Notes under the pieces: generated by a model
Databases searched by the model: none
What the model was told of the DNA's origin: nothing
The model's input: the letters and a program-made list of their open reading frames with translations, nothing else
Position numbers and translations under genes: made by a program
Origin: Armatimonadota bacterium
GTDB taxonomy: Bacteria > Armatimonadota > Armatimonadia > Armatimonadales > Capsulimonadaceae
Assembly: GCA_019239955.1 (NCBI GenBank)
Contig: JAFAZD010000252.1
Location: 1-32,009 of the forward strand
Direction: 5' to 3'
DNA length: 32,009 bases
Shown here: positions 3,476 to 23,380 of the stretch, piece after piece
How the letters are laid out: the number at the start of each line of letters is the position of its first letter
How positions within the stretch are numbered: the first letter of the stretch is position 1

Positions 3476-5311
3476 TCAGAAGCCGGGCAGGGTCTGGGTG
3501 CCCTGCGCCTGCACGGCCGTCAGGCTCTGCGGGTTGAGGCCCAGCAGCTTCAGGATGGTCGGCGCCACCTGGGTCGTGTGGACCTGCACGGGATTGGAGG
3601 TGCCGGGGGCGGTCACGCCGGCGCCGGCGACCAGCAGGGCGACATTGGTGTCGTCGGACGTGAAGCCGCCATGCTCGGCGACTTTCTTGCCCGATCCCGA
3701 GTAGATGACGCCCGGGTAGGGCTGGGCGATGATGTCCGGCGTCCGCGGGTCCGTCGCTGGGTTGTCAAAAGAGAACTGCATCAGCGGCCCGTACAGCATC
3801 GTCTGGATGGCGTCCTGAGTCCGGTCCATGGTCAGCTTGAGGACGGCGGACATGGTGTTGGCGCCGGGCTGGAGCCACATCAGCGAGATGTCGTCCTCGA
3901 TGCCGTGCGCGACGTAGGTGTGTCCGAGGTCGCCGAAGGGGGACTGCGTGACGGGACCGACCGGGGATTTGGTCGTGCCGCCGGCCATCATCCGCAGCGT
4001 GTTGATGTTGATCGGCGACTGGCCGTGCTTGGCGGTGACGATGATCGTGGTGCTGCTGAGCAGGCCCTGGCTCTGGAGTTCGGCGTAAAACTTGCCCAGG
4101 CGATTGTCGATGTAGCTCAGGGCGCTGCTGAGCAGCGGGCCGGGCGTGCCGTTGGCGCCGGTATAGCCGCCCGTCATGGGGGTGGTCGCGCTGTAGAAGG
4201 CGTCGGTCGCCGCGCCGGCCACCGGGGCCGGCTCCTTGGTGAGTTTCTCCCCGACGCTGACGGCCTGGAAGTTCATGGCGAAGATCGACGGCACAGGTTC
4301 CGTCGTCGTCCCGGTGTGGTCCTTGCCGTCGATCTCGTTCAGGATGGCCCGGACCTTCAGGTCGTCGTAGGCCTCGACGTTGAGGATGCTGCTGGTGCCG
4401 GTGCTCTTGCCGGCGGTGAAGTTCGAGTCGGCCAGGGTCGTGGCCGAGGCGGTGGTGGGGTCCACGACCTCCATCAGCCCGCGGGAGTCCAGCAGGGGAC
4501 TGTTCCCGTTGGCCGGATTAGGGACCACGGCGAGGTAGGCGGCGATCTCCGGGCTGTAGTAGTCATTGACGCCCGGCCCGTACTTGTCGGGACCGTTGGC
4601 GATCGTGTACGCGGCGGCGTGCTTGTCGCTGAAGGCGGTGTACAGGCCTGAGGCGTGGGCGACCTGGAAGATGGTGTTGTTGCGCCCGAAGTTGTTGGGG
4701 GTGACGGGGAGGTTGTTGTTGTTCGGGTCGCGCGGGACGCGGGTGGGGTCCAGGACCGCGCCGCCGTTCAGGCTCGCGCCGCCGTCCAGGTGCTGGAAGT
4801 CGTACTCGATGAACTCGTCGTACTCGGCTTGGGTGCCGGTGATGGCGATGCCCGCGGCGAAGGTGGGGGCGTTCATGCCGACGTAGTCGAAGGAGCCGGG
4901 GCCGCCGCTGGTCGGGTCGATGCCCTGGACGAAGCCCTGGTTGGTCGGCGGCAGGTAGGAGCGGTCGTAGCCGACGTCATAGTAGACGCCCTCGGTGACG
5001 GGGTCGCCGCCCGTCAGCAGCGCCATCGTGCCGGGGAACGAGTCCGACGGGCGCGTGGTGGCGGCGTTGGGGTAGATGACGCCCTTGCCGGCAAGAAACG
5101 CCAACGTCGAGGTCGGATTGTTCTGGATGTAGTAGGCGAGATCGGAGGCATGCAGGCCGTCCACGCTGATCAGCAGGACGTGAGCAGCGGGCGCGACGGT
5201 GACGGCGCGAACCTGAGCAGGGGACGCGGGCCGGGCGGGCGGCTGCGCGTGGCTGGCCGAGGCCAGCAAGGCGAGGCCGAGCGCGGCGGGCAGGGCGGGG
5301 CGAAGTTTCAC
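3476..5311 (-). CDS. Alkaline-phosphatase-superfamily protein (type I phosphodiesterase/nucleotide pyrophosphatase-like)
   Basis: Signal peptide plus VLLISVDGLHASDLAYYIQN, PSDSFPGTMALLTGGDPVTEGVYYD, TAKHGQSPI and AEHGGFTSDDTNVALLVAG motifs. Confidence 0.88.
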   Translation of the reverse strand: MKLRPALPAALGLALLASASHAQPPARPASPAQVRAVTVAPAAHVLLISVDGLHASDLAYYIQNNPTSTLAFLAGKGVIYPNAATTRPSDSFPGTMALLTGGDPVTEGVYYDVGYDRSYLPPTNQGFVQGIDPTSGGPGSFDYVGMNAPTFAAGIAITGTQAEYDEFIEYDFQHLDGGASLNGGAVLDPTRVPRDPNNNNLPVTPNNFGRNNTIFQVAHASGLYTAFSDKHAAAYTIANGPDKYGPGVNDYYSPEIAAYLAVVPNPANGNSPLLDSRGLMEVVDPTTASATTLADSNFTAGKSTGTSSILNVEAYDDLKVRAILNEIDGKDHTGTTTEPVPSIFAMNFQAVSVGEKLTKEPAPVAGAATDAFYSATTPMTGGYTGANGTPGPLLSSALSYIDNRLGKFYAELQSQGLLSSTTIIVTAKHGQSPININTLRMMAGGTTKSPVGPVTQSPFGDLGHTYVAHGIEDDISLMWLQPGANTMSAVLKLTMDRTQDAIQTMLYGPLMQFSFDNPATDPRTPDIIAQPYPGVIYSGSGKKVAEHGGFTSDDTNVALLVAGAGVTAPGTSNPVQVHTTQVAPTILKLLGLNPQSLTAVQAQGTQTLPGF

Positions 5312-5369: not shown

Positions 5370-5410
5370 CCGTTAACGAACTGTTAAATCGCGGTTAAAT
5401 TTGGGTTAAG
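5370..5410 (-). promoter_or_regulatory. Pho-box-like array of 4 direct repeats with 11-bp period
   Basis: Minus strand: CTTAACCC aaa TTTAACCG cga TTTAACAG ttc GTTAACGG. On plus, GTTAA starts at 5372, 5383, 5394 and 5405. Confidence 0.75.
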
Positions 5411-5416
5411 AAGGCA

Positions 5417-7252
5417 TCAGCGGCGCTGCGCCAGCAGGATGCAGGCGTCATCGGCGAGGGGGCCGCTGGCGAAGGCGCGCGCGCCGTCGAGGATGGACCG
5501 GCTGATCTCGCCGACGGAACCGCAGTCGCGGCACGCCCGCGCGAGGCGCTTGAGGCCGTCCAGGCCGAGCAGGGGCCCGCCGGGGCGGCGCGCCTCGGTG
5601 ATGCCGTCGGTCGCCATTAGCAGCATCCCGCCGGGGGGAAGGCGGAACGTCGTCTCCCGGTACCTCTGGCCCGGCGACACGCCCAGGATCAGGCCGCTGC
5701 CCAGGCCGACCTCCTGAATCGCGTCGCTCTCCGCGTCCGGGGGCGGCAGCGCCAGCAGCGGCTCGGACCCGGCGGAGGTGTACGTGACCTCGCCGGTATT
5801 CGGCTCAATGAGGGCCAGGGCGAGCACGACCATGTTGGTGTTGCCCCAGTCGTCCTGCCGCTGGGCCTCGCAGACGAAGTCATTCAGGCGGGCCAGGGCG
5901 CGCCCCGGCTGGGGCGTCTCGCGCAGGAAGGCGCGCAGGGCGAATTTGATCTCGGTGGTGTGGGTCGCCGCGCTCAGGCCCTTGCCGGACACGTCCCCGA
6001 CCACCAGCGCGACCTTGCCGCTGTCCACCGTGAAGGCGTCGAAGAAGTCCCCGCCGACCCTGGCCTCGTCGGAGGCGGCCTTGTAGAGCGTGGAGACGGC
6101 CAGGCCGGGGAAGGCGTTCTCGGAGACGGTCTGCAGCAGTGCGGTCTGCAGGGCGTCGGCGATGCGACGGGTCCGGTCCAGGTCCCGCCCCTGTGCCAGC
6201 TCGGCCCGCTTACGCTCCGTGATGTCCCGGACGACGACGCCCACCCCTGTCGCCTCGCCCATGGTCGGCACCGGGTAGTAGGAGACCAGGAAGTGGCGTA
6301 TCTCGCCGGGATAGGCCGGGGACTCGCCGGAAAGGTCCTGGTCCAGCACGGCCTCGCCCGCGAGGGCGCGCCGGCACAGCGGCTCCCGGGCCCGCCAGGC
6401 GTCCGCCCCGATCACGTCGGCGGGGCGTCGCCCCTGGTGCGCCTCGGCCGGGAGGCCGTTGAGCCGGGCCAGGGCAGGGTTGACCCGCACGTAACGCAGG
6501 TCGCGGTCCAGCAGGGCGAAGCCGACGGGGGCGGCGGACAGCAGCGCCTCCACCAGCGCGGCCTGCTCCCGGCTGCGGCGCTCGGCGGCCTCCAGCTCCG
6601 CCGTGCGCTCCTGGACGCGCCTTTCCAGCTCGGCGTTCATCTGCTGGAGGCGCGCCTCCCAGTTCTTGCGCTCGGTGATGTCGCGCACCAGCCAGCGCAG
6701 GCCGATCGGGGCGCCGTCCCGCCCCCGCACGGCGCTGACGGAGAGGGCGGCGGGGAGGGCGGCCCCCCGGCGCGGACGCAGCACTACCTCCCACTCGGCC
6801 CGAGCATCCTCTTGCTGCATCTGTCTTAGACGGGAGCGGAAGTCCTGGCGGGATTCCAGCGTAACGTAGGCGGCCAGCGGCTTACGCGCCAGGTGCCGGG
6901 ACTGGATGCCCAGCAGCCTGCCGGCGGCCCGGTTGGCCTCCAGAATCCTGCCGTCTATATTGGTGACGAGGTAGGCGTCGGGCGCGGAGTCGAACAGGTC
7001 CTGATACCGCCGGTGCTCCTCCTCGACCGCCAGGCGCGTCCTGCCCAGCTCCTCGTTCTGCGCGTGCAGCTCCTCCTCGGCGACGCGCAGCTCCTCCAGG
7101 GAGATGCCGAGCTCCTGAAGCGAATCCGCCAACAGGCCGCCCCGCTGCGCTCCCTCCTCCCCGACCAAGTCGCGGAGGTCGGCCATGCGCGCGTGCGCGT
7201 CAGTGATCTCTTCGGTGAACGGTTTCAAGTTCATGCCCATGGTCTTGTTCAT
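5417..7252 (-). CDS. PAS-PAS sensor with PP2C/SpoIIE-type phosphatase domain
   Basis: Two PAS domains (YQDLFDSAPDAYLVTNIDGRILEANRAA; VRDITERKxxE) and a SpoIIE domain (ARVGGDFFDAF, VALVVGDVSGKGLSAA, GGMLLMATDGITEAR). Confidence 0.92.
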   Translation of the reverse strand: MNKTMGMNLKPFTEEITDAHARMADLRDLVGEEGAQRGGLLADSLQELGISLEELRVAEEELHAQNEELGRTRLAVEEEHRRYQDLFDSAPDAYLVTNIDGRILEANRAAGRLLGIQSRHLARKPLAAYVTLESRQDFRSRLRQMQQEDARAEWEVVLRPRRGAALPAALSVSAVRGRDGAPIGLRWLVRDITERKNWEARLQQMNAELERRVQERTAELEAAERRSREQAALVEALLSAAPVGFALLDRDLRYVRVNPALARLNGLPAEAHQGRRPADVIGADAWRAREPLCRRALAGEAVLDQDLSGESPAYPGEIRHFLVSYYPVPTMGEATGVGVVVRDITERKRAELAQGRDLDRTRRIADALQTALLQTVSENAFPGLAVSTLYKAASDEARVGGDFFDAFTVDSGKVALVVGDVSGKGLSAATHTTEIKFALRAFLRETPQPGRALARLNDFVCEAQRQDDWGNTNMVVLALALIEPNTGEVTYTSAGSEPLLALPPPDAESDAIQEVGLGSGLILGVSPGQRYRETTFRLPPGGMLLMATDGITEARRPGGPLLGLDGLKRLARACRDCGSVGEISRSILDGARAFASGPLADDACILLAQRR

Positions 7253-7290
7253 GGTTTTTGCCGGCTTTCTGGGGCAGGGCGGATCTCCTG

Positions 7291-7335
7291 CGTATGGCGA
7301 AGAGGCGTATGGCGAAGAGGCGTATGGCGAAGAGG
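7291..7335. repeat. 15-bp minisatellite, 3 exact copies
   Basis: CGTATGGCGAAGAGG x3 (7291, 7306, 7321), in the gap between the CheR-like and SpoIIE-like genes. Confidence 0.95.
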
Positions 7336-7417
7336 CCTATTTTTGGTTTACCCGCCTGGGCCTCACGGTTAAACATGACGATTCCCATTCCGAGCGAACG
7401 CCGATCTCAGGCCGCCG

Positions 7418-9292
7418 CTACTCCGCGTGGTTCAGCTCCTCCATCAGCAGGATGACGCCCCCCATGTCATCGCCGGAGCCGAGCAGGGGGTTGCAGGTGA
7501 CCCTGCATCGGATCGGGCGGCCCCGCCGGTTGATGGCGTCCAGGACCACATCCTCCGTGGCCTGGCCCATCAGACAGGCGCGAATGGGCTGCCGGAGCCG
7601 GTCCACGGGCAGGCCGATGTCCAGATTCAGGAAGTGCTTGCCCTGCGCCTCGTCGGCGCGCAGGCCCCACATGTCCTCGGCGTGGCGGCTCCAGACCAGC
7701 ACCTGCAGGTCCGGGTCCACGACCGCCACGCCGGCCTGCAGACTGGTCAGGATTGAGGCCAGGAAGGCGTTGACGCCGTCCAGCTCCGTGCTGCGCTGGC
7801 GCAGCGCCAAGTTCATGGTCTGCATCTCCTCATTGGTGGATTGCAGCTCCTCGTTCATGGTCTCCAGCTCTTCGTTGGACGATTGCAGCTCCTCGTTGGT
7901 GGTCTCCAGCTCCTCGTTGATGGACTGCAGCTCCTCGTTGGTGGTCTCCAATTCTTCGTTGGTGGACTGTAGCTCCTCGTAGGCCGTCTCCAGCTCGCGG
8001 TTAGTGTCCTCCATCTCATGGTTGACCTCTTCCAATGCCGCCTGCATCAGTTTGTAGCGAGTCACATCGGTGAAGGCAACGCTGACGCCCAGGAGGGCGC
8101 CCCGCGAGTCCAGCAGGGGCATCACCAGCACGTCCAGGTACTTGACCTCGCCACCCACGGCCAGCCACTTGCTCTCCTTCAGGCTGGCGGGGCGGCGCTC
8201 GACACAAACGCGCTCGATCAGAGCGCGCAGCTCGGCGGGCTGGGAGGACATCTCCAGGTCCTGGAACGAGCGTCCCAGGTCGCGGGCGCTCAGGCGGAAC
8301 AGGTCGCGCGCCTGCTCGTTGGCCAGGGCGAGCTCCCCATTGGCGTCCACCACCACCTCCGCCACGGATCCCCTATCGAAGACGGCCTCCCGGATGAGGA
8401 GTTGGCGCTGGAGCGAGGTCTCCTTCTCCTCGCCGGCGCGGGCCGGCGGCAGCAGGTGGTCGCGCAGGCTGCGGGACGGCACCTTGGTGAAGACGCGCCA
8501 CTTCAGGTCGCGCGGCAGGAACAGGTTGCTGTGCGCGAACAGCATCTCGGCCTTGCCCAGGAACAGGAAGCCGGTGTCAGTGAGGGCGAAGTGGAAGCGG
8601 GAGATGATGCGCGCCTGCGCGTCGGCGTTCAGGTACATCAGGGTGTTGCGGCAGATCAGCAGGTCCACCCGGGAGATGGGCGCGTCGCGCACCAGGTCGT
8701 TGCGCCCGAAGATCACGTTGCGGCGCAGTTCCCGGTGGAACAGCAGGCGCGAGTCGGTGCGCTCGAAGTACCTGTCCAGCAGGGGCGCGGGGACGCCGTC
8801 GACGTCGCGCAGGCTGTAGGAGCCGTGGCGGGCGTGGCCGAGCGCCTCCTCGTCCACGTCCGTGCCGTAGATCTTGACGCGATCGCGGAATTGGTCCACG
8901 CCCAGCGCCTCGGCCAGCAGCATGGCGGCCGTGTACGGCTCCTCGCCGGAGGCGCAGCCGGCGCTCCAGACGCGGATCGGCTCGTGCGGCGACTTTTCCT
9001 CCAGCAGCAGCGGGAGCACCACGTCGGCGATGTAGCGCCAGGCCTCCGGGTCCCGGAAGAAGCCGGTGACGTTGATCAGAATCGTGTTGAAGAGCGCGCC
9101 GAACTCGTCCGGGTGCTCTACCAGGTAGGCGCGGTACGCGGCGTAGTCAGGGGCGCCGACCGCCTGCATCCGCTTCTGGAAGCGGCGGGCCAGTCCGGCG
9201 CGCTTGTAACCGGTGAAGTCGAAGCCGCGCTCGCGCTTCAGGGACTCCAGCAGATTCTCGAACTCGGGATCGATCTCGGCAGTGCGACTCAT
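7418..9292 (-). CDS. CheR-type methyltransferase with long heptad coiled coil and PAS domain
   Basis: MSRTAEIDPEFENLLESLKRERGFDFTGYKRAGLARRFQKRM; FNTILINVTGFFRDPEAW, VWSAGCASGEEPYTAAMLLAE and DLLICRNTLMYL. C-terminal PAS and a repeated NEELETTNEELQS coiled coil. Confidence 0.93.
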   Translation of the reverse strand: MSRTAEIDPEFENLLESLKRERGFDFTGYKRAGLARRFQKRMQAVGAPDYAAYRAYLVEHPDEFGALFNTILINVTGFFRDPEAWRYIADVVLPLLLEEKSPHEPIRVWSAGCASGEEPYTAAMLLAEALGVDQFRDRVKIYGTDVDEEALGHARHGSYSLRDVDGVPAPLLDRYFERTDSRLLFHRELRRNVIFGRNDLVRDAPISRVDLLICRNTLMYLNADAQARIISRFHFALTDTGFLFLGKAEMLFAHSNLFLPRDLKWRVFTKVPSRSLRDHLLPPARAGEEKETSLQRQLLIREAVFDRGSVAEVVVDANGELALANEQARDLFRLSARDLGRSFQDLEMSSQPAELRALIERVCVERRPASLKESKWLAVGGEVKYLDVLVMPLLDSRGALLGVSVAFTDVTRYKLMQAALEEVNHEMEDTNRELETAYEELQSTNEELETTNEELQSINEELETTNEELQSSNEELETMNEELQSTNEEMQTMNLALRQRSTELDGVNAFLASILTSLQAGVAVVDPDLQVLVWSRHAEDMWGLRADEAQGKHFLNLDIGLPVDRLRQPIRACLMGQATEDVVLDAINRRGRPIRCRVTCNPLLGSGDDMGGVILLMEELNHAE

Positions 9293-9338
9293 GGCTTCTT
9301 CCCGGCATCCGTTCAGAGGCATGGGGCGTGGAGGGCGT

Positions 9339-10382
9339 TTAGGGCGCGAGGGACGATGGATCGTCCCCCCTGGCGGCCTCGGCCTGCTCGTGGGCCAGGG
9401 CCTGCCGGATGATGGCGGCGCGCTGGTGGGCATCCTCGGCCTGCTGGCCGAAGCGCACCGCCAACAGAACGTGGCCGCGCTGTCCGGCCCGTTCGCCCAT
9501 GCGGCGCGCCATCGCGGCGCTCTCCTCCAGGGCGCGCAGCGCGATCCAGAGGGCGGCCTCCAGGCCCTCCACCTGGGAGGCGAGCAGGCTATCGGGCGAG
9601 TAGGCGTGGCCGACGCGGCAGCGGTAGCGCACCAGCTCGCCCTCCTGCACCTCCCAGAGCGAGCCGTGACAGTCCGGGCAGGTGAACTCGCTGGGGGTGC
9701 CGTCCCGACGGGATTCGATGGCGGCCATGTCCATCTCCGCGATCTCAGACTCGGTCTGTATCCTGTCTGGCATAGGGTATTCCGACTCCGCGGGCGCGGG
9801 CGTACGCGCCAGGTCGGCCAGGGCGGGGCCGAGTGCGGCCAGGGTCAGTATCTGATCCACGGCGACGTTCTCCAGGGCGCTGCGCGGCATGGACGAGAAC
9901 AGGGCCTCCTCCGGGTCCTGCACCACGGCCAGGCCGCCGCGCATCTTGACCGCCTGCAGGCCCGCCGTGCCGTCGTCCAGCGCGCCGGACAGCACCACCC
10001 CGATCACGCGGGGGCCGTAGGCCCGTGCCGCCGTGCGGAACAGCACGTCCACGGCGGGCCGGTGGCCGTTCTCGGTAGGGCCGCGCGAGAGGCCGACGCG
10101 CCCGGCCTCGACCAGCAGGTGGTGGTCCGGCGGGGCGACGTAGATGTGGCCCGGCCGGATGGACTCGCCATCGCTGGGATGGCGGGCGGGCATCGGCCCC
10201 TTGCGGCTCAGGATCGCCGGCAGCACGCTGGGCGCGAAGGCCGGGACGTGCAGCACCACGAAAACCGCCGCCGGCAGGTCGGCGGGCAGGCCCTGCGCCA
10301 GCGCCGCCAGCGCCTCCACGCCGCCCGCCGAGGCCCCGATCACGATGATGTCATGCCCATTTTTGGGCGCGTTTGATTCCAC
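9339..10382 (-). CDS. CheB-type methylesterase with C-terminal zinc-ribbon-like region
   Basis: IVIGASAGGVEALAALAQGLPADLPAAVFVVLHV...GHIYVAPPDHHLLVE...VIGVVLSGALDDGTAGL. No receiver domain. FTCPDCHGSLWEV...YRCRVGHAYS tail. Confidence 0.93.
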   Translation of the reverse strand: MESNAPKNGHDIIVIGASAGGVEALAALAQGLPADLPAAVFVVLHVPAFAPSVLPAILSRKGPMPARHPSDGESIRPGHIYVAPPDHHLLVEAGRVGLSRGPTENGHRPAVDVLFRTAARAYGPRVIGVVLSGALDDGTAGLQAVKMRGGLAVVQDPEEALFSSMPRSALENVAVDQILTLAALGPALADLARTPAPAESEYPMPDRIQTESEIAEMDMAAIESRRDGTPSEFTCPDCHGSLWEVQEGELVRYRCRVGHAYSPDSLLASQVEGLEAALWIALRALEESAAMARRMGERAGQRGHVLLAVRFGQQAEDAHQRAAIIRQALAHEQAEAARGDDPSSLAP

Positions 10383-13587: not shown

Positions 13588-13617
13588 CTTTTCAAGAATT
13601 TAACATTTTGTTAATGT
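13588..13617 (+). promoter_or_regulatory. Degenerate Pho-box-like array upstream of the SLH porin
   Basis: CTTTTCAA gaa TTTAACAT ttt GTTAATGT (starts 13588, 13599, 13610). An 8-nt gap precedes -10 TACAAT (13626-13631), the same gap as at pstS. Confidence 0.45.
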
Positions 13618-13798
13618 TCCTGTGCTACAATGGCTCACGGTTGCTTTGGAAACTGAGTGGCAACATTTCGCGGGCTATAATTGAGTCATCACAAAGCCGT
13701 GTGCCCTCATGTTATCCAGGCATCTGCGACGCGGTCATCAGAAGCCGCGTTAAGTTGAGACAACGATCTCAAGACCATGACCTTTGAGGAGGATACGC

Positions 13799-15493
13799 AT
13801 GAAGATTTGGACTGCCGCACTGGCCTGCGGCGCGCTGGCGGGCGGGGCCGCGCTCGGCACGTTGCCGGCTCAGGCCCAGGGGACCACCTTCCCCGACGTG
13901 CCCGCCAACCACTGGGCCTACCAGGCGGTGCAGGACCTGGCCGACAAGGGCTACGTCAAGGGCTACCCCGACGGCAGGTTCCTGGGCAAGCGCGACCTGA
14001 CGCGCTACGAGTTCGCCACCGTCATTGACCGCATCGTGCAGACGGTCAACGACCTGAACACCAAGGTCGGCGCGATCCCGACCACACCGACGGGCACCCC
14101 CGTCACCCAGGACGACCTGAACAAGATTCAGGCGCTGGTGGACAGTTTCAAGGCCCAGTTGGACACGATCCAGAGCAACGTCACCAACCTGACCGACCAA
14201 CTGGATGCGCTACGCCAGGACGTGCTGGACACCAAGGCCCTGGCGAACAAGGCCCAGGACACCGCCAACAACTCCTACGGCGCAGGGGCGAACCGCAAGT
14301 TCACCATCAGCGGCTACGTCCAGGCGCGCTACGAGTCTACCGGCAGCGGCAACAACACGCTGTTCCCGCGCGGGGGCGCATTCGCTCCCGGCTCCTACAA
14401 CGGCACGTATGACCAGGGCAACAACTCGCAGTCATTCCTGGTGCGCCGGGCCCGCCTGAAGGTCGCCGGGGCGATCACCGGCAACACGAAGTACGGCATC
14501 CAAATTGACACCTCCGGTGCGACGGGGGCGGCCGTGTCCCCGACCAACCAGCAGGTGACTGTCCGCGAGAGTTATGTCGCTTACACCTTCGGCAACGGCG
14601 ACTCGACCCTCAATCCCACGGTGACGGCCGGTCTGTTCGCCAACCCGTATGGCTATCAGCTGTTTTCCTCCGCCGCCAACATCCTCTCTCCGGAGCGCCC
14701 GCTCGCCTTCAATGAGGGCGGCCAGGGCATCTGGGCGAATGAGGACTATGTCCTGGGAGCCCAGATCGGTTACAACACCCAGCGCCAGCTCGTCTTCCTG
14801 CCGAGCGGCCTGCATCTCTCCTACTCTGCCGTCAACCCCAACGGGCGCGCGACCGACAATCAAACGCGCCACATCGACAGCATCTATCGCGCCAACTACC
14901 AGACACCGAACAAGGAACTGGGCCTCGGCGTCTCCTATTACGATGGCGAGGTCTCCAACGGTACCGGCACCACGTTCCGCGAGCCGAAGAAACAACTGTT
15001 TGGGGTGGATGGACAACTGCAAACCCCGGCAGGTTTCTTCCTCAACGCTGAATACGAGACGGGCAAGTACGAGACGCGCAGCTACTTCGGCCCGCCCAAT
15101 GCGAGTGGTTTAGCGACCTTCGTGACTGATCCCTACGTCAAAAACAACCAGATCGCCGGCTACTACGTCCAGGGAGGCTGGACCTTCAATCAGACCGGGG
15201 CACATCCCCTGACCCTGGCGGCCAGTTACGACGCGCTGTACCGTTCGCACAGTGCGCACAACGATACCGGCAACATTTACGCCGGCACCGTGAACAGCAT
15301 CACAGAGGGTTATAGCTCCGGCGGCGGCTCCTACGACGACACGAACCTCGGGTACGGCGTCCTGTACAATCTGGACAGAGCCACCCGCCTGCGCGTCTGG
15401 TATGAGCAGCCGTTCGCGGTCGCGCACGCCTACAACGCGCCGACGCCGCAGCGCATCGGCCTCTTCACCACGGAACTTCAGGTGAAGTTCTGA
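13799..15493 (+). CDS. SLH-domain outer-membrane porin, phosphate-selective porin O/P-like barrel
   Basis: FPDVPANHWAYQAVQDLADKGYVKGYPDGRFLGKRDLTRYEFA SLH module, coiled coil, then FTISGYVQARYES...FLVRRARLKVAGAITGNTKYGIQID. SD GGAGGA before the ATG at 13799. Confidence 0.85.
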   Translation: MKIWTAALACGALAGGAALGTLPAQAQGTTFPDVPANHWAYQAVQDLADKGYVKGYPDGRFLGKRDLTRYEFATVIDRIVQTVNDLNTKVGAIPTTPTGTPVTQDDLNKIQALVDSFKAQLDTIQSNVTNLTDQLDALRQDVLDTKALANKAQDTANNSYGAGANRKFTISGYVQARYESTGSGNNTLFPRGGAFAPGSYNGTYDQGNNSQSFLVRRARLKVAGAITGNTKYGIQIDTSGATGAAVSPTNQQVTVRESYVAYTFGNGDSTLNPTVTAGLFANPYGYQLFSSAANILSPERPLAFNEGGQGIWANEDYVLGAQIGYNTQRQLVFLPSGLHLSYSAVNPNGRATDNQTRHIDSIYRANYQTPNKELGLGVSYYDGEVSNGTGTTFREPKKQLFGVDGQLQTPAGFFLNAEYETGKYETRSYFGPPNASGLATFVTDPYVKNNQIAGYYVQGGWTFNQTGAHPLTLAASYDALYRSHSAHNDTGNIYAGTVNSITEGYSSGGGSYDDTNLGYGVLYNLDRATRLRVWYEQPFAVAHAYNAPTPQRIGLFTTELQVKF

Positions 15494-15508
15494 GCCTGTT
15501 CCTCTCCG

Positions 15509-15544
15509 GGCCGGGGCATGAGCAGTCATGCCCCGGCCTTTTTT
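15509..15544 (+). terminator. Rho-independent terminator after the porin gene
   Basis: GGCCGGGGCATGA gcag TCATGCCCCGGCC TTTTTT. Confidence 0.93.
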
Positions 15545-15559
15545 GCCACCCAGCCCAAT

Positions 15560-15600
15560 CTTAATGCCGTCTTAACATTCCCTTAGTCTTCACTTAACAT
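15560..15600 (+). promoter_or_regulatory. Pho box of 4 direct repeats with 11-bp period upstream of pstS
   Basis: CTTAATGC cgt CTTAACAT tcc CTTAGTCT tca CTTAACAT, starting at 15560, 15571, 15582 and 15593. Confidence 0.88.
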
Positions 15601-15608
15601 ACGCCGAG

Positions 15609-15614
15609 TATACT
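15609..15614 (+). promoter_or_regulatory. -10 element of the pstS promoter
   Basis: TATACT placed 8 nt after the last Pho-box unit. Confidence 0.65.
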
Positions 15615-15686: not shown

Positions 15687-16691
15687 ATGTTATCTTTCAA
15701 GCGCATTATCACACTGACGGCGGGCGTGGCCGCGGGCCTGTCGGCCCTGGCGGGCGCGGCCCAGGCGCAGGAACTGACCGGCGCGGGGGCGACCTTCCCG
15801 GCCCCCCTCTACCAGCGATGGTTCCAGGAATACGGACAGTCGCACGGCGTCCGCATCAACTACCAGCCCATCGGCTCCGGCGGCGGCATCAAGCAGATCA
15901 CCGCCCGCGCCGTGGACTTCGGCGCGTCCGACGCGCCCATGAACGCCACCGAGTTGGCGGCAGCCCCCGGCATCGTCCACATCCCCACCGTGGCCGGCCC
16001 GGTCTGCGTCGCCTACAACATCCCCGGCGTCGGCCCCGGCATCCACCTGACCGGCCCCGTCATCGCCGACATCTTCCTGGGCAAGATCACCCGCTGGAAC
16101 GACTCGCGCATTACGAGTCTCAGCCCCGGCACCCGCTTCCCCGCCACCAACATCTTCGTCGCCCATCGCTCCGATGGGTCGGGCACGACCAACATCTTCA
16201 CGACCTACCTGAGCGAAGTCAGCAGCGGTTGGAGGGACGATGTCGGCGCGGGCAAGTCCGTCCGCTGGCCGGTCGGCCTGGGCGGCAAGGGCAATGCGGG
16301 CGTCGCGCAGCTGATCAAGGCCAACGAGGGCGGCATCGGCTACATTGAGCTCAACTACGCCGTCACCAATTCGATCCCCTACGCCGCCGTCCGCAACCGC
16401 GCCGGCCGGTTCGTCTATCCCAACGTGGAGGACACGTCCGAGGCCGTGGACGGCGTCTCGCTGCCCGCCGACTTCCGCAAGGTCGCCGTCAACACGTCCG
16501 CGCCCAACGGCTACCCCATCACCGGCTTCACCTTCCTGCTGGTCTACCGCAACGGCACCAAGACCGCCATGAAGCAGTTCCTGGAGTGGGCGCTGACCAG
16601 CGGACAGAGCATCGCGCCCTCCATGCAGTACGCGCCGCTGCCGCCCGGCGTGCGCCGCCGCGCCCTGGCCGCCGTGGCCTCCATCCATTAG
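15687..16691 (+). CDS. pstS: Phosphate ABC transporter substrate-binding protein PstS
   Basis: ELTGAGATFPAPLYQRWFQEYGQSHGVRINYQPIGSGGGIKQITARAVDFGASDAPM; VAHRSDGSGTTNIFTTYLS. SD GGAGGA. Confidence 0.96.
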   Translation: MLSFKRIITLTAGVAAGLSALAGAAQAQELTGAGATFPAPLYQRWFQEYGQSHGVRINYQPIGSGGGIKQITARAVDFGASDAPMNATELAAAPGIVHIPTVAGPVCVAYNIPGVGPGIHLTGPVIADIFLGKITRWNDSRITSLSPGTRFPATNIFVAHRSDGSGTTNIFTTYLSEVSSGWRDDVGAGKSVRWPVGLGGKGNAGVAQLIKANEGGIGYIELNYAVTNSIPYAAVRNRAGRFVYPNVEDTSEAVDGVSLPADFRKVAVNTSAPNGYPITGFTFLLVYRNGTKTAMKQFLEWALTSGQSIAPSMQYAPLPPGVRRRALAAVASIH

Positions 16692-16751: not shown

Positions 16752-16804
16752 GTCGTTCCGGGGCCGCCCGCTGTTTTGAATGCCCCCTCCCCGTGTCATA
16801 ATCC

Positions 16805-16823
16805 CTTAACATTCTCTTAACGA
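16805..16823 (+). promoter_or_regulatory. Pho-box-like pair upstream of DUF47-PiT
   Basis: CTTAACAT tct CTTAACGA, 11-bp spacing. No clear -10 downstream. Confidence 0.6.
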
Positions 16824-16853: not shown

Positions 16854-17474
16854 ATGCGACTGCTGCCACGCGAGGAAAAGTTTTTCGATCTGTTCGACCG
16901 GCTGGCCGAGAAGGTCACGATCGGGGCGGAGATGCTGGAAGATGTCTTGAGAGATTTCAGCCAGGCGGAGGCGGCGAAGGCGCGGCTGCGCGACCTCGAA
17001 CACGAGGCCGACCGCCTGGTGCATGAGGTGATGGACCGGCTCAACAAGACGTTCGTGACGCCCCTGGACCGCGAAGACATCCACGCGCTGGCGCACGTCA
17101 TGGATGACGTGCTCGACTATGCCGACTCCTCCCTGGACCGGATGCTGCTCTACGGCATTGACCGGCCCATCCCCCATGCGCTGGAGATGGCCACGCTGCT
17201 CGTGCGGGCGAGCCAGCAGATTCGGCAGGGGGTGACGGGCCTGCGCAACTTCGGCGACATCCGGGGCATCCTCGACCCGTGCGTCCGCATCAACGAGCTG
17301 GAGAACCAGTGCGATGTCATCAACCGTCAGGCGCTCAGGGCGCTGTTCAGCGACGGGATGGACCCCATCACGATCCTGAAGTGGCGTGAGATTTACGACC
17401 GCCTGGAGAACGCCCTGGATCGGTGTGAGGACGTGGCCGACGTGCTGGAAAGCATCGCCGTCAAGAACAGCTAA
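16854..17474 (+). CDS. DUF47 / PhoU-like family protein
   Basis: LLPREEKFFDLFDRLAEKV...LEHEADRLVHEVMDRLNKTFVTPLDREDIHALAHVMDDVLDYAD...DRLENALDRCEDVADVLESIAVKNS. Confidence 0.93.
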   Translation: MRLLPREEKFFDLFDRLAEKVTIGAEMLEDVLRDFSQAEAAKARLRDLEHEADRLVHEVMDRLNKTFVTPLDREDIHALAHVMDDVLDYADSSLDRMLLYGIDRPIPHALEMATLLVRASQQIRQGVTGLRNFGDIRGILDPCVRINELENQCDVINRQALRALFSDGMDPITILKWREIYDRLENALDRCEDVADVLESIAVKNS

Positions 17475-17502: not shown

Positions 17503-18495
17503 TTGGACCATACGCTGTTTTGGATCGGGATCGTCGTCGTCCTGGCCCTGACGTTTGACTTCTCCAACGGCGTGCATGACGCCGCCAATGCCATCGCCAC
17601 CACGGTCACGACGCGCGCGCTCTCCATGAGCCGCGCCGTGCTGATAGCGGCCTTCTTCAACCTGATCGGCGCCCTCGTCAGCACGGGCGTCGCCCACTTC
17701 GTCGGCAAGGGGCTGGTGGACGCCCACCTGGTCACGCTGCCGGTGGTGGCGGCGGCCCTGGTCGGGGCCATCGGCTGGAACCTGCTGACCTGGTACTACG
17801 GCCTGCCGTCGTCGTCCTCGCACGCTCTCATTGGTGGGATCGTGGGCGCGGCCCTGTTTTCCTTCGGGCCGCGCTCGGTCCATCCATCCGGCCTGATCAT
17901 GACGGTGGCGGCGCTGATCACCTCGCCCATCGCCGGATTTCTGGGCGCTTACCTGCTCATGCGGGCGCTGCTGTGGGCCTTCGCCAGCCGGCCGTTCACC
18001 CCCACGATGCGCGCATTCCGGCGGCTGCAACTGGCGTCGGCGGCGTTCATGGCCTTCTCGCACGGCTCCAATGACGCGCAGAAGACGATGGGCGTCGTCA
18101 CCCTGGCGCTGGTCAGCGGGCACTTCCTGAGCAGCCAGGCGCCCATTCCCTTGTGGGTCATTCTCGCCTCCGCGACGGCGATGGCGTTGGGGACGGCCAT
18201 CGGCGGCTGGCGCATTATCAAGACGCTCGGCAGCAAACTGGTGGACCTCTCGCCCGCACACGGCTTCGCGGCGGAGACGGCGGCGGCGGCCGTGATTCTG
18301 ACCGCCACGCACCTCAACCTGCCGATCTCGACCACCCATGTCATCGCCTCGTCCGTGCTGGGCGTGGGGGCGACGCGGCGCGCCCATTCGGTGCGCTGGG
18401 GCACGGCCGCCAACATCGTGCTGGCCTGGGTGCTGACCATCCCGGGGGCCGGCCTGGCGGCGGGGCTGGCGGCTTTGCTGGTGCGCCATCTCTGA
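17503..18495 (+). CDS. Inorganic phosphate transporter, PiT family
   Basis: FDFSNGVHDAANAIATTVTTRALSMSRAV...AFSHGSNDAQKTMGVV. Probable TTG start after GAAGAGGA. Confidence 0.94.
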   Translation: MDHTLFWIGIVVVLALTFDFSNGVHDAANAIATTVTTRALSMSRAVLIAAFFNLIGALVSTGVAHFVGKGLVDAHLVTLPVVAAALVGAIGWNLLTWYYGLPSSSSHALIGGIVGAALFSFGPRSVHPSGLIMTVAALITSPIAGFLGAYLLMRALLWAFASRPFTPTMRAFRRLQLASAAFMAFSHGSNDAQKTMGVVTLALVSGHFLSSQAPIPLWVILASATAMALGTAIGGWRIIKTLGSKLVDLSPAHGFAAETAAAAVILTATHLNLPISTTHVIASSVLGVGATRRAHSVRWGTAANIVLAWVLTIPGAGLAAGLAALLVRHL

Positions 18496-20044: not shown

Positions 20045-20437
20045 ATGCATGAACTCTCCCTGGCGGCCTCGGTCGTCGAGATCGCCCTCCGGCACGCGGC
20101 GGGGCGGCGGGTGACGCGGGTGGAGTTGGAGGTGGGTGCGCTGCGGCAGGCGGTCCCGTCGGCCCTGGCCTTCAGTTTTGAGGTGGTCGCCCACGGGACG
20201 CTGGCGGAAGGAGCCATCCTGGACATCCGGGCCATCCCGGCCCGGGGCGCGTGCCGCCGCTGCGGGGCCGTCAGCGAGCTGCACTTGTTTCCCTTGCAGT
20301 GCCCGTCCTGCGGGGCATTTGATTTAGAGATCGTGGCCGGGGAGGAGCTGCTAGTCGCCTCCCTGGAACTGGAGGAAAGACACGATGGAGAGCACGACCA
20401 AGACGGTGGTGATGGAGGGCATCCTGGATGCCAATGA
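20045..20437 (+). CDS. hypA: Hydrogenase/urease nickel metallochaperone HypA
   Basis: MHELSLAASVVEIAL (MHE N-terminus) and zinc motifs CRRCGAV...CPSCGAFDLEIVAGEELLV. C-terminal His/Asp tail overlaps hypB. Confidence 0.93.
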   Translation: MHELSLAASVVEIALRHAAGRRVTRVELEVGALRQAVPSALAFSFEVVAHGTLAEGAILDIRAIPARGACRRCGAVSELHLFPLQCPSCGAFDLEIVAGEELLVASLELEERHDGEHDQDGGDGGHPGCQ

Positions 20438-21071
20438 CGCGCTCGCCCAGGCCAACCGGGATAAGTTCGACCAGGCCGGCACCTACGTCATCAACATGAT
20501 GAGCTCGCCGGGCGCGGGCAAGACAACGATCCTGGAACGCACCCTGGAGGCGCTCGGCGGCAAGTTACGCATGGGCGTCGTGGAGGGCGACGTGCAGACG
20601 TCGCTTGACGCCGACCGTCTGGCCCGCTTCGGCGTCCCCACCGTGCAGATCAACACCGGGTCGGAGTGGGGCGGCGGGTGTCACCTGGACGCGAACATGG
20701 TGCGCTGCGGGCTGCCGTCGCTCCCGCTGCAGGAGATTGACCTGCTCTTTATCGAGAACGTCGGCAACCTCGTGTGTCCGGCGGGCTTTCGGCTCGGAGA
20801 GGACACGCGGGTGATGGTCGCCTCCGTGACCGAGGGGGAGGACAAGCCCCTCAAATACCCGTTCATGTTCCGCTCCGCCGAGCTGGTGCTGGTCAACAAG
20901 GCCGACCTGCTGACGCATCTTGACTTCGATCTGGCGCTGTTCCTGCGGAACCTGGACGCGGTCAATCCGGGCGCGCCACGGATTCTCCTGAGCGCCCGCA
21001 CCGGCCAGGGCATCCAGGAATGGTATTCATGGCTGATGACGCGGCGCGAGGCCGTTGCTCAAAGTGTATAG
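20385..21071 (+). CDS. hypB: Hydrogenase nickel incorporation GTPase HypB
   Basis: NMMSSPGAGKTTILERTLE P-loop, GVVEGDVQTSLDADR, GGGCHLDANMV, LLFIENVGNLVCPAGFRLGED, LVNKADLL. Confidence 0.97.
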   Translation: MESTTKTVVMEGILDANDALAQANRDKFDQAGTYVINMMSSPGAGKTTILERTLEALGGKLRMGVVEGDVQTSLDADRLARFGVPTVQINTGSEWGGGCHLDANMVRCGLPSLPLQEIDLLFIENVGNLVCPAGFRLGEDTRVMVASVTEGEDKPLKYPFMFRSAELVLVNKADLLTHLDFDLALFLRNLDAVNPGAPRILLSARTGQGIQEWYSWLMTRREAVAQSV

Positions 21072-21093
21072 AGAGAGTGCTTGGATCGCCCCC

Positions 21094-21305
21094 AGGGTCA
21101 TTCCGTTCTCGTGCCTGGCGACTGAAGTCGCGGCTATTCAGCGCACTGTCCCCCTCCGGGGACGTTTTGGCCCCCCGGGGGCGTTCTTGCCGCCGGCGCG
21201 GACTTCTTGCCCTGCGTGCGGGGCAGGCCGGGTCTGCGTCGGCGCAGGCCGACAGCGCCCCGGATAGCCGCGACTTCAGTCGCCAGGCGAGAACGGAATG
21301 ACCCT
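21094..21305. mobile_element. MITE-like non-autonomous element
   Basis: Termini AGGGTCATTCCGTTCTCG[TG]CCTGGCGACTGAAGTCGCGGCTAT (left) and its reverse complement (right, 21263-21305, lacking the TG). Flanked by exact direct repeats GGATCGCCCCC at 21083-21093 and 21306-21316. Confidence 0.85.
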
Positions 21306-21326
21306 GGATCGCCCCCCTGCCCATGT

Positions 21327-22379
21327 TCAGGCCGCCTCGTAGTTCTTGAGGCGGTAGACCAATACGGACACGACCCACCCCAGCAGGAACGTGCCGATGA
21401 TGACGTAGCCGAGGCTGTCGAAGCTCAGACGCCCCACCGCGCCCCAGAACCGCCCCCGCAGCGAGAACTCCTGCTGCAAGATCTGCAGCAGCTCGTAGGT
21501 CCCCACCACGAAGGCCACCAGCACCGAGAGCGTCGTGATGCTCAGGTTGTAATAGAGCTTGCGGATCGGCTTGACAAAGGCCCAGCCGTAGGCCCCCAGC
21601 ATCAGGACCCCGTCCAGCGTGTCCACCAGGCACATCCCCGCCGTGAACAGCAGGGGCAGCAGCATGAGGGTCCCGAAGGGGACGCCTGACTGGCCCGAGC
21701 GCGCCGAGATCGCCAGAATCCCCACCTCCGTGGCCGTGTCGAAGCCCAGGCCGAACAGGAAGCCGACGAAATACATCTGCCAGGAGTGTCGGATCAGGCG
21801 CAGCACGGGGCGGAAGAAGCGCCCCAGCAGGCCCCGCTGCGCCAGAAAATCCTCCACCTTCTGGTCGGCATAGTCCCCGCCGCCCGCCACCTGCCGGAAC
21901 GCCCGGTACAAGTCCCACAGCACGATCAGGTTGATGACTCCGATGACATACAGGAAGACGCTGGAGATGAGGGTTCCCGCGACCGCTCCGGTGCTCTGCA
22001 AGGCGGGCAGGTGCCTCTGGACGTAGGCGGTGGAGAGCGCCAGGGCCGCGCAGAGCAGGACCACGACGGTGGAATGACCCAGCGAAAAGAAGAGGCCGAC
22101 GCCCAGGGGCCGCTGGCCGTCCTGCATGAGCTTGCGGGTGGTGTTGTCGATGGCGGAGATGTGGTCAGCGTCCACAGCATGGCGCAGCCCGAAGCCGTAG
22201 GCCAGCAGCCCCGTCGAGAGCAGCAGGGCATAGTGGCGCGACGCGCCCCAGGTCAACAGCCAGACCAGGACACTGACGCCGACCAGGCCCGACAGCAAGG
22301 CGATGGCCCTGGTCTTGAGGCTCCCCTGGCGACCATTCGGGAAATCAGGCATGAGAAACTTTCGTTGACGGACTCTCAT
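21327..22379 (-). CDS. NiCoT-family nickel/cobalt permease
   Basis: GFGLRHAVDADHISAIDNTTRKL (NiCoT HX4DH signature), FSLGHSTVVV, GFDTATEVGIL. ATG at 22377-22379 overlaps the tonB stop (ATGA). Confidence 0.93.
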   Translation of the reverse strand: MRVRQRKFLMPDFPNGRQGSLKTRAIALLSGLVGVSVLVWLLTWGASRHYALLLSTGLLAYGFGLRHAVDADHISAIDNTTRKLMQDGQRPLGVGLFFSLGHSTVVVLLCAALALSTAYVQRHLPALQSTGAVAGTLISSVFLYVIGVINLIVLWDLYRAFRQVAGGGDYADQKVEDFLAQRGLLGRFFRPVLRLIRHSWQMYFVGFLFGLGFDTATEVGILAISARSGQSGVPFGTLMLLPLLFTAGMCLVDTLDGVLMLGAYGWAFVKPIRKLYYNLSITTLSVLVAFVVGTYELLQILQQEFSLRGRFWGAVGRLSFDSLGYVIIGTFLLGWVVSVLVYRLKNYEAA

Positions 22380-23380
22380 TCTACCTCGAACTCGAACCGG
22401 AACCGCTGTGTGCTTCTGATCGGCCGGCCGTCCCGCAGGGCCGGCTTCCACTTCCAGCGCTGAAGTGCCTCGATGACGCGCCGGTCAATCTCGGAGTTGC
22501 CGGACGACGTGCGCAAAGTCACCGAGAAACCGCCGTCTGCCTCGATGTCTACCTTCACCCGCACAAAGGTCTTGAAGCTTTCCTGCTTCAGCTCATCCGG
22601 GATTTCGGGCTTGATCTGGTTGCTCGGCTCCGCGTCCTGGGTCGGCCCGGACGGCTCCGCATCCGCCGGAGGAACCGGCTTGGTTTCGGGTCTTGTTTCC
22701 GGCTTGGCCTCCGGTCTGCCTTCCGGCCTTGTCTCCGGCTTCTGATCGCTGTGGTCGCCGCTATCCGATGACTGATGCTCGATAGGCTTGCCGAGAGTTG
22801 CATGGCCGCCTTGCGGCACCGTGAATTCCCGATTCTGGGAGGACGGGCTTCGTGCGGTCAGAACGTGATGGTGTGCTGCCGGATGCGCCGGAGCGCTGAC
22901 GGCCTTCGGCTTCGAGATCGTTCGGGGCCGGATGACCACATGGGGTTTGACGACCGGCTTGACAATCGGCCTCGGTTTTATCACAAGCCGGGGCTTGAGG
23001 CGCGGCTTCGGCTTTGCAATCCTCCTGGGTCTGATGAGGGGAATGTGCCGCGCAATCCATTTTGGCATGACGATGCGCTTCGGCTTCGGGGGTGTTTTAT
23101 GAATGATCTTCTTGTGAACGGCCTTCCGGGGCGGCTTCACCGTCGGCAACAGGATCCGCGTGATCTCGATGGGCGCTGCCGGCGCGAGAACGTGGCGTCG
23201 CACGGTGTCGGCGGCGGTCAACCACAGGATGGCGTTGACAGGGATCGAGATCAGCAGGCCCCAGCCCAGGCGCCGTCCGGGCACGTCTGGGGGCAGACGT
23301 GCGCCTGCGCGCGGCGCGGATTCCGGCACCGCGTCCTCCGGCGGGGGCATCGGCGGCAGTTCCAGCTTAAGGGACGGCAC
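22376..23380 (-). CDS. tonB: TonB-family energy transducer
   Basis: One N-terminal TM helix, long Lys-Pro/Arg-Pro linker, C-terminal ADGGFSVTLRTSSGNSEIDRRVIEALQRWKWKPALRDGRPIRSTQRFRFEFEVE. Confidence 0.88.
   Translation of the reverse strand: MPSLKLELPPMPPPEDAVPESAPRAGARLPPDVPGRRLGWGLLISIPVNAILWLTAADTVRRHVLAPAAPIEITRILLPTVKPPRKAVHKKIIHKTPPKPKRIVMPKWIARHIPLIRPRRIAKPKPRLKPRLVIKPRPIVKPVVKPHVVIRPRTISKPKAVSAPAHPAAHHHVLTARSPSSQNREFTVPQGGHATLGKPIEHQSSDSGDHSDQKPETRPEGRPEAKPETRPETKPVPPADAEPSGPTQDAEPSNQIKPEIPDELKQESFKTFVRVKVDIEADGGFSVTLRTSSGNSEIDRRVIEALQRWKWKPALRDGRPIRSTQRFRFEFEVE

Follow-up and report, generated by a model that had tools for sequence, protein, structure and literature searches.

The pstS gene of this bacterium lies behind four direct repeats in 11-bp phase (15560..15598, forward strand), recognized from the sequence and from pattern scans, that very probably serve as operator for a response regulator of the PhoB/PhoP type, that is, as a Pho box. 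The hallmarks of such a box were found: tandem direct repeats of about 11 bp with at least two units, a position upstream of a −10 where they substitute for the −35, siting before phosphate genes genome-wide, and, encoded in the same genome, a matching PhoB/PhoP regulator with its PhoR kinase. Here, "the window" denotes the whole 32,009-nucleotide stretch that was analysed; genome-wide results rest on pattern searches and sequence stretches. Sequence shows the phasing of the units and of the −10, the enrichment, the gene associations, conservation and the presence of the regulator; that the regulator is phosphorylated, binds the array and activates or represses its genes, and in which direction phosphate acts, we infer.

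The pstS promoter and its probable Pho box

The units start at 15560 (CTTAATGCcgt), 15571 (CTTAACATtcc), 15582 (CTTAGTCTtca) and 15593 (CTTAACATacg), and each combines an 8-mer (CTTAATGC, CTTAACAT, CTTAGTCT and CTTAACAT, respectively) with a 3-nt linker. Their hexamers read CTTAAT, CTTAAC, CTTAGT and CTTAAC, the third being the sole departure from CTTAAY. The −10 hexamer TATACT (15609..15614, +) is in phase with the array at an offset of 5 (ccgag) after the last 11-mer, which places it 8 nt past the last 8-mer and 10 nt past the last CTTAAC. The initial annotation had given the four starts and the 8-nt step to TATACT, and both proved exact. It had also placed the array in the role of the −35, and there is indeed no −35-like hexamer 16–18 nt from TATACT, the best (TCTTCA) matching at 3/6 positions as judged by eye.

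That the repeats arose by chance is suggested by the degenerate third unit and by nothing more. A three-unit phased CTTAA pattern (≤3 mismatches) occurs eight times in the window, where shuffled sequence would yield 0.02, and the enrichment extends across the order; a chance tandem repeat is almost certainly not what we see.

The gene itself (15687..16691, +; TIGR00975, PBP_like_2) is a single-gene unit encoding a phosphate-binding protein, and its product scores 357.4 bits against the TIGR00975 cut-off of 205, in keeping with the name pstS that it had been given. An intrinsic terminator-like hairpin (15508..15539, +) lies between the upstream SLH-porin gene and pstS; because it separates the two, pstS should have its own promoter.

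The Bacillus subtilis PhoP box consists of TT[ATC]ACA repeats and has the TTAACA core and the 11-bp period in common with this array. The cyanobacterial SphR Pho box, CTTAACCT, comprises three tandem repeats of 8 bp plus a 3-bp linker (PMC1906773). Our array resembles it in the CTTAAC/CTTAAT core, in the 8-bp unit with 3-bp linker and in lying upstream of pst and phosphatase genes (PMC1906773), but here there are two to six units with the −10 at one of two in-phase distances, positions 7–8 are often AT, TG or CC rather than CT, the lineage is different and there are extra targets. With the E. coli PhoB box it shares 11-bp direct repeats, a minimum of two units, a TAN3T −10 and the replacement of the −35 (PMC1906773, PMC4415409), whereas the unit is CTTAAY here and CTGTCAT/CTGTACTA in E. 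coli.

The earlier view that the unit is more cyanobacterial than the E. coli CTGTCAT type holds for its sequence, since CTTAAC and the 11-bp period match the SphR box (PMC1906773, PMC4415409). The resemblance is confined to the unit and does not extend to descent, the organism very probably being neither a cyanobacterium nor a Deinococcus. A Deinococcus origin, which the SLH-porin and the GC content had suggested, was rejected on PstS identity. PstS is about 46% identical to Deinococcus proteins, 42–46% to cyanobacterial ones and up to 75% to those of same-family genomes (the named relatives are too distant for footprinting of the box). Each of 19 genomes of the order encodes 15–80 PF07596 pseudopilins, compared with none in the Synechococcus control, and it is because of this difference, together with the PstS identity of only 42–46%, that a cyanobacterium is very unlikely. 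The pseudopilin expansion and the SLH-porins hint at an Armatimonadota-like order, a tentative placement on which the Pho reading does not depend.

Phasing and putative target genes across the order

A search for three CTTAAY units in 11-bp phase (≤2 mismatches) in the 19 genomes returned 190 matches versus 11 for the reversed pattern, overlapping triplets within one array being counted more than once; in the window's genome alone there were 14 versus 0. The 14 lie ahead of pstCAB, pstS, phosphoesterase genes and a pseudopilin gene, besides a few unclear sites. The condition that the initial annotation had named as refuting its reading, phased matches without enrichment before phosphate genes, was not borne out. 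At a 10-bp phase, the same search over the order gave 4 matches versus 10 reversed, that is, no enrichment. Two units plus a −10 at fixed distance were found 15 times in the window's genome, and twice with the reversed pattern. Of 91 arrays, 40 have TAnnnT at offset 5 and another 16 have it 11 bp farther on, at offset 16 (56/91 together); 1.4 would be expected per offset. Such a fixed offset is what an activator arranged head to tail on one DNA face and touching sigma would require.

These figures bear on the proposal that the repeats are −35/UP-type elements of ordinary constitutive promoters, with a periodicity due to A/T tracts or DNA bending. Although a weak sigma-70-like match (TTAACA-17-TAACAT) does occur inside the pstS array, the phasing is specific to 11 bp and near zero at 10 bp, the unit is a defined hexamer and not an A-tract, the array genes are functionally coherent, and at pit the boxes lie downstream of the −10. 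We consider constitutive promoters highly improbable.

Besides that of pstS, the window holds three arrays, two of which (5410-5372, minus strand, and 16805-16821) were reached from three-unit pattern matches and one (13599-13631) from a later scan. The array at 5372..5410 (−) has four units (CTTAAC, TTTAAC, TTTAAC and GTTAAC) upstream of a gene for a type I phosphodiesterase/sulfatase-fold hydrolase (3476..5311, −; PF01663, PF00884); its TACTAT misses the phase by 2 nt, which counts against a Pho assignment. At 13599..13631 (+), two units (TTTAAC and GTTAAT) and an in-phase −10, TACAAT, form the apparent promoter of the SLH-domain/Porin_O_P outer-membrane porin gene (13799..15493, +), which heads the pst operon in relatives. 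Lastly, two CTTAAC boxes (16805..16821, +) lie just downstream of a −10, CATAAT (16797-16802), a predicted repressor position, ahead of genes for a PhoU_div (DUF47) accessory protein (16854..17474, +; PF01865) and the low-affinity phosphate transporter Pit of the PHO4 family (17503..18495, +; PF01384).

Two other gene groups in the window may be recorded. A cluster encoding a SpoIIE-PAS phosphatase, CheR-PAS and CheB (5417-10382, minus strand) probably serves stress signalling, and 20045-23380 encodes a nickel maturation and transport group (HypA, a CobW/HypB-like GTPase, a NicO nickel transporter and a TonB-like protein).

In the window's genome as a whole, arrays precede pstCAB, both pstS genes, the SLH-porin gene, phoU_div-pit and genes for the phosphodiesterase, a PF04185 phosphoesterase, a metallophosphatase and a pseudopilin. 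Here, pstCAB is on a separate contig and has a four-unit array to itself (TTTAACATTTT CTTAACATTTT CTTAATGTTGA CTTAACGGCTC GCAGTGTATAC...), and several relatives have porin, pstS, pstC, pstA and pstB together in an apparent operon. Most array-bearing genomes for which the region was available have a box ahead of this operon, or of one with pst alone: G001, G010, G011, G013-G017 and, irregularly spaced, G018. The picture in G008 was ambiguous, and the sequence available for G009 and G012 covers the region in part. A box directly before pstS was looked for in the relatives and not found there, because pstS lies inside the porin-pstSCAB operon and the box before the porin gene. Further targets in relatives are two PhoX genes and the genes for a phytase-like protein and for three PF04185 phosphoesterases of the YncE type. 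In the one genome of genus g8 examined, the pst region shows no clear box though phoB is present, which counts against the assignment. More broadly, G001 and G002 (genus g6) and G004-G007 (genus g8) have almost no three-unit arrays despite a PhoB ortholog; contraction of the regulon or the use of two-unit boxes is possible.

The window's genome assembly consists of 409 contigs with an estimated contamination of 5.55%, so that individual contigs, C207 or C254 for example, may be foreign. Contig C207 (72.5% GC, possibly foreign) carries a strong four-unit array (L032:5740-5778) before a possible 34-aa membrane peptide, and this array has no in-phase −10 having TA. A two-unit box precedes a short secreted protein without family assignment (C106:2608-2640, L323). 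Two good intergenic units at L037:1838-1865 (minus strand) face away from genes for an aquaporin/GlpF-like protein and a HAD hydrolase, and possibly act in repression. Contigs C379 and C341 also carry three-unit matches, outside the clear gene associations. Matches on contigs C264, C133, C278 and C281 contain no TTAA units and were rejected, as they look like chance.

The regulator and its predicted action

Every one of the 19 genomes encodes one PhoB ortholog, that of the window's genome being on contig C35. The recognition helix RTVDVHxRWxREK is present in all 18 readable orthologs, including 5/6 of those from the array-poor genomes of g6 and g8. A histidine kinase gene follows phoB directly in 17/19 genomes (five cases checked by Pfam); in the other two the contig ends, and in the window's genome the kinase gene is itself cut by the contig end. 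In G018, phoB, phoR and pstCAB are contiguous. The C35 regulator scores 240.4 bits against the TIGR02154 PhoB equivalog cut-off of 296.2, still its best family; the shortfall counts against the assignment, and we class the protein as PhoB/PhoP-like without equating it with PhoB of E. coli. The targets, the PhoB ortholog of all 19 genomes, the kinase in 17/19 and the phoB-pstCAB contiguity in G018 combine into a strong case for Pho control.

Under phosphate starvation, the phosphorylated C35 regulator would line up head to tail on the 11-bp units, always on the same DNA face. The last of its subunits, a single turn away from the −10, would stand in for the missing −35 and recruit sigma-70 RNA polymerase to pstS. 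Other phosphate-scavenging genes of this genome and of the order would be driven by the same element, with two to six units and the −10 in helical phase.

The phoU_div-pit boxes sit on the apparent −10 or immediately after it in all four genomes read there, namely the window's own (G000), G015, G018 and G014; the −10 was assigned by eye, and the G015 boxes are on the opposite strand. This position suggests that starvation represses the low-affinity transporter sterically: the regulator bound on or after the −10 would block the polymerase and shut Pit off. Phosphate stress lowers pit expression in Sinorhizobium meliloti, in a manner reciprocal to Pst (PMC8829014). The two systems are alike in having a pit gene with an accessory protein, reciprocal to high-affinity transporters (PMC8829014), and unlike in that repression here is suggested by box position only.

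Pseudopilin genes and a candidate small RNA

Among seven relatives, DUF1559/N_methyl pseudopilin genes lie downstream of 30/65 arrays (those with a downstream ORF) versus about 1.9 expected, a background derived from larger first-look gene counts. These arrays fall at L150-L227 (e.g., L154, L183 and L212). Pseudopilins are not known to be linked to phosphate, which counts against a Pho assignment and would suit an operator for a different OmpR-family regulator, one whose role at the surface or in nutrition is broader and for which phosphate genes are only part of the targets. The window's genome does encode six further OmpR-type DNA-binding domains, but all three full-length regulators that were scanned besides PhoB (L044, L046 and L047) are CusR/CopR-like, the recurrent annotated targets are pst operons, phoX, a phytase-like gene, phosphodiesterases and pit, and the PhoB ortholog occurs in every genome and adjoins pstCAB in G018. 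Another OmpR regulator is accordingly an unlikely reading, and we retain the PhoB/PhoP-type operator. For Fimbriimonas (Armatimonadetes), 79 pseudopilin genes and a PhoBR pair have been reported (PMC4072686); the literature searched revealed no link between the two.

In five genomes of the family, a four- or five-unit array is followed by a candidate small RNA of about 80 nt (L035 ~6537-6616), which is always upstream of a SpoU-type methylase gene. The locus is L035:6480-6620 on contig C337 of the window's genome, and L334, L335, L336 and L337 in relatives. Neither the stem GAGGTT/GACCTC nor the tract CCCATTGCTCATC varies, and the terminator stem shows compensatory changes. An Rfam search gave no family, the best match being below gathering, and an RNA duplex search for targets gave chance-like matches only. 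Its function as a small RNA is inferred; the element may instead serve the methylase gene as leader or attenuator.

Apparently no Pho box has been described for this order in the literature searched, and the pseudopilin arrays (about half of those examined in relatives) and the array-headed small RNA look new. We lean towards a Pho regulon extended to DUF1559 pseudopilins and, in one family, to the ~80-nt small RNA, so that starvation would remodel the surface and bring in post-transcriptional control. For a poorly studied order, the analysis offers a precise definition of the putative Pho operator: its unit, its 11-bp phase, two −10 distances, and activation versus repression by position. The regulon it predicts is an unusual one, whose phosphate-starvation genes would include pseudopilins and a new small RNA, and the very large DUF1559 family would thereby gain its first functional lead.
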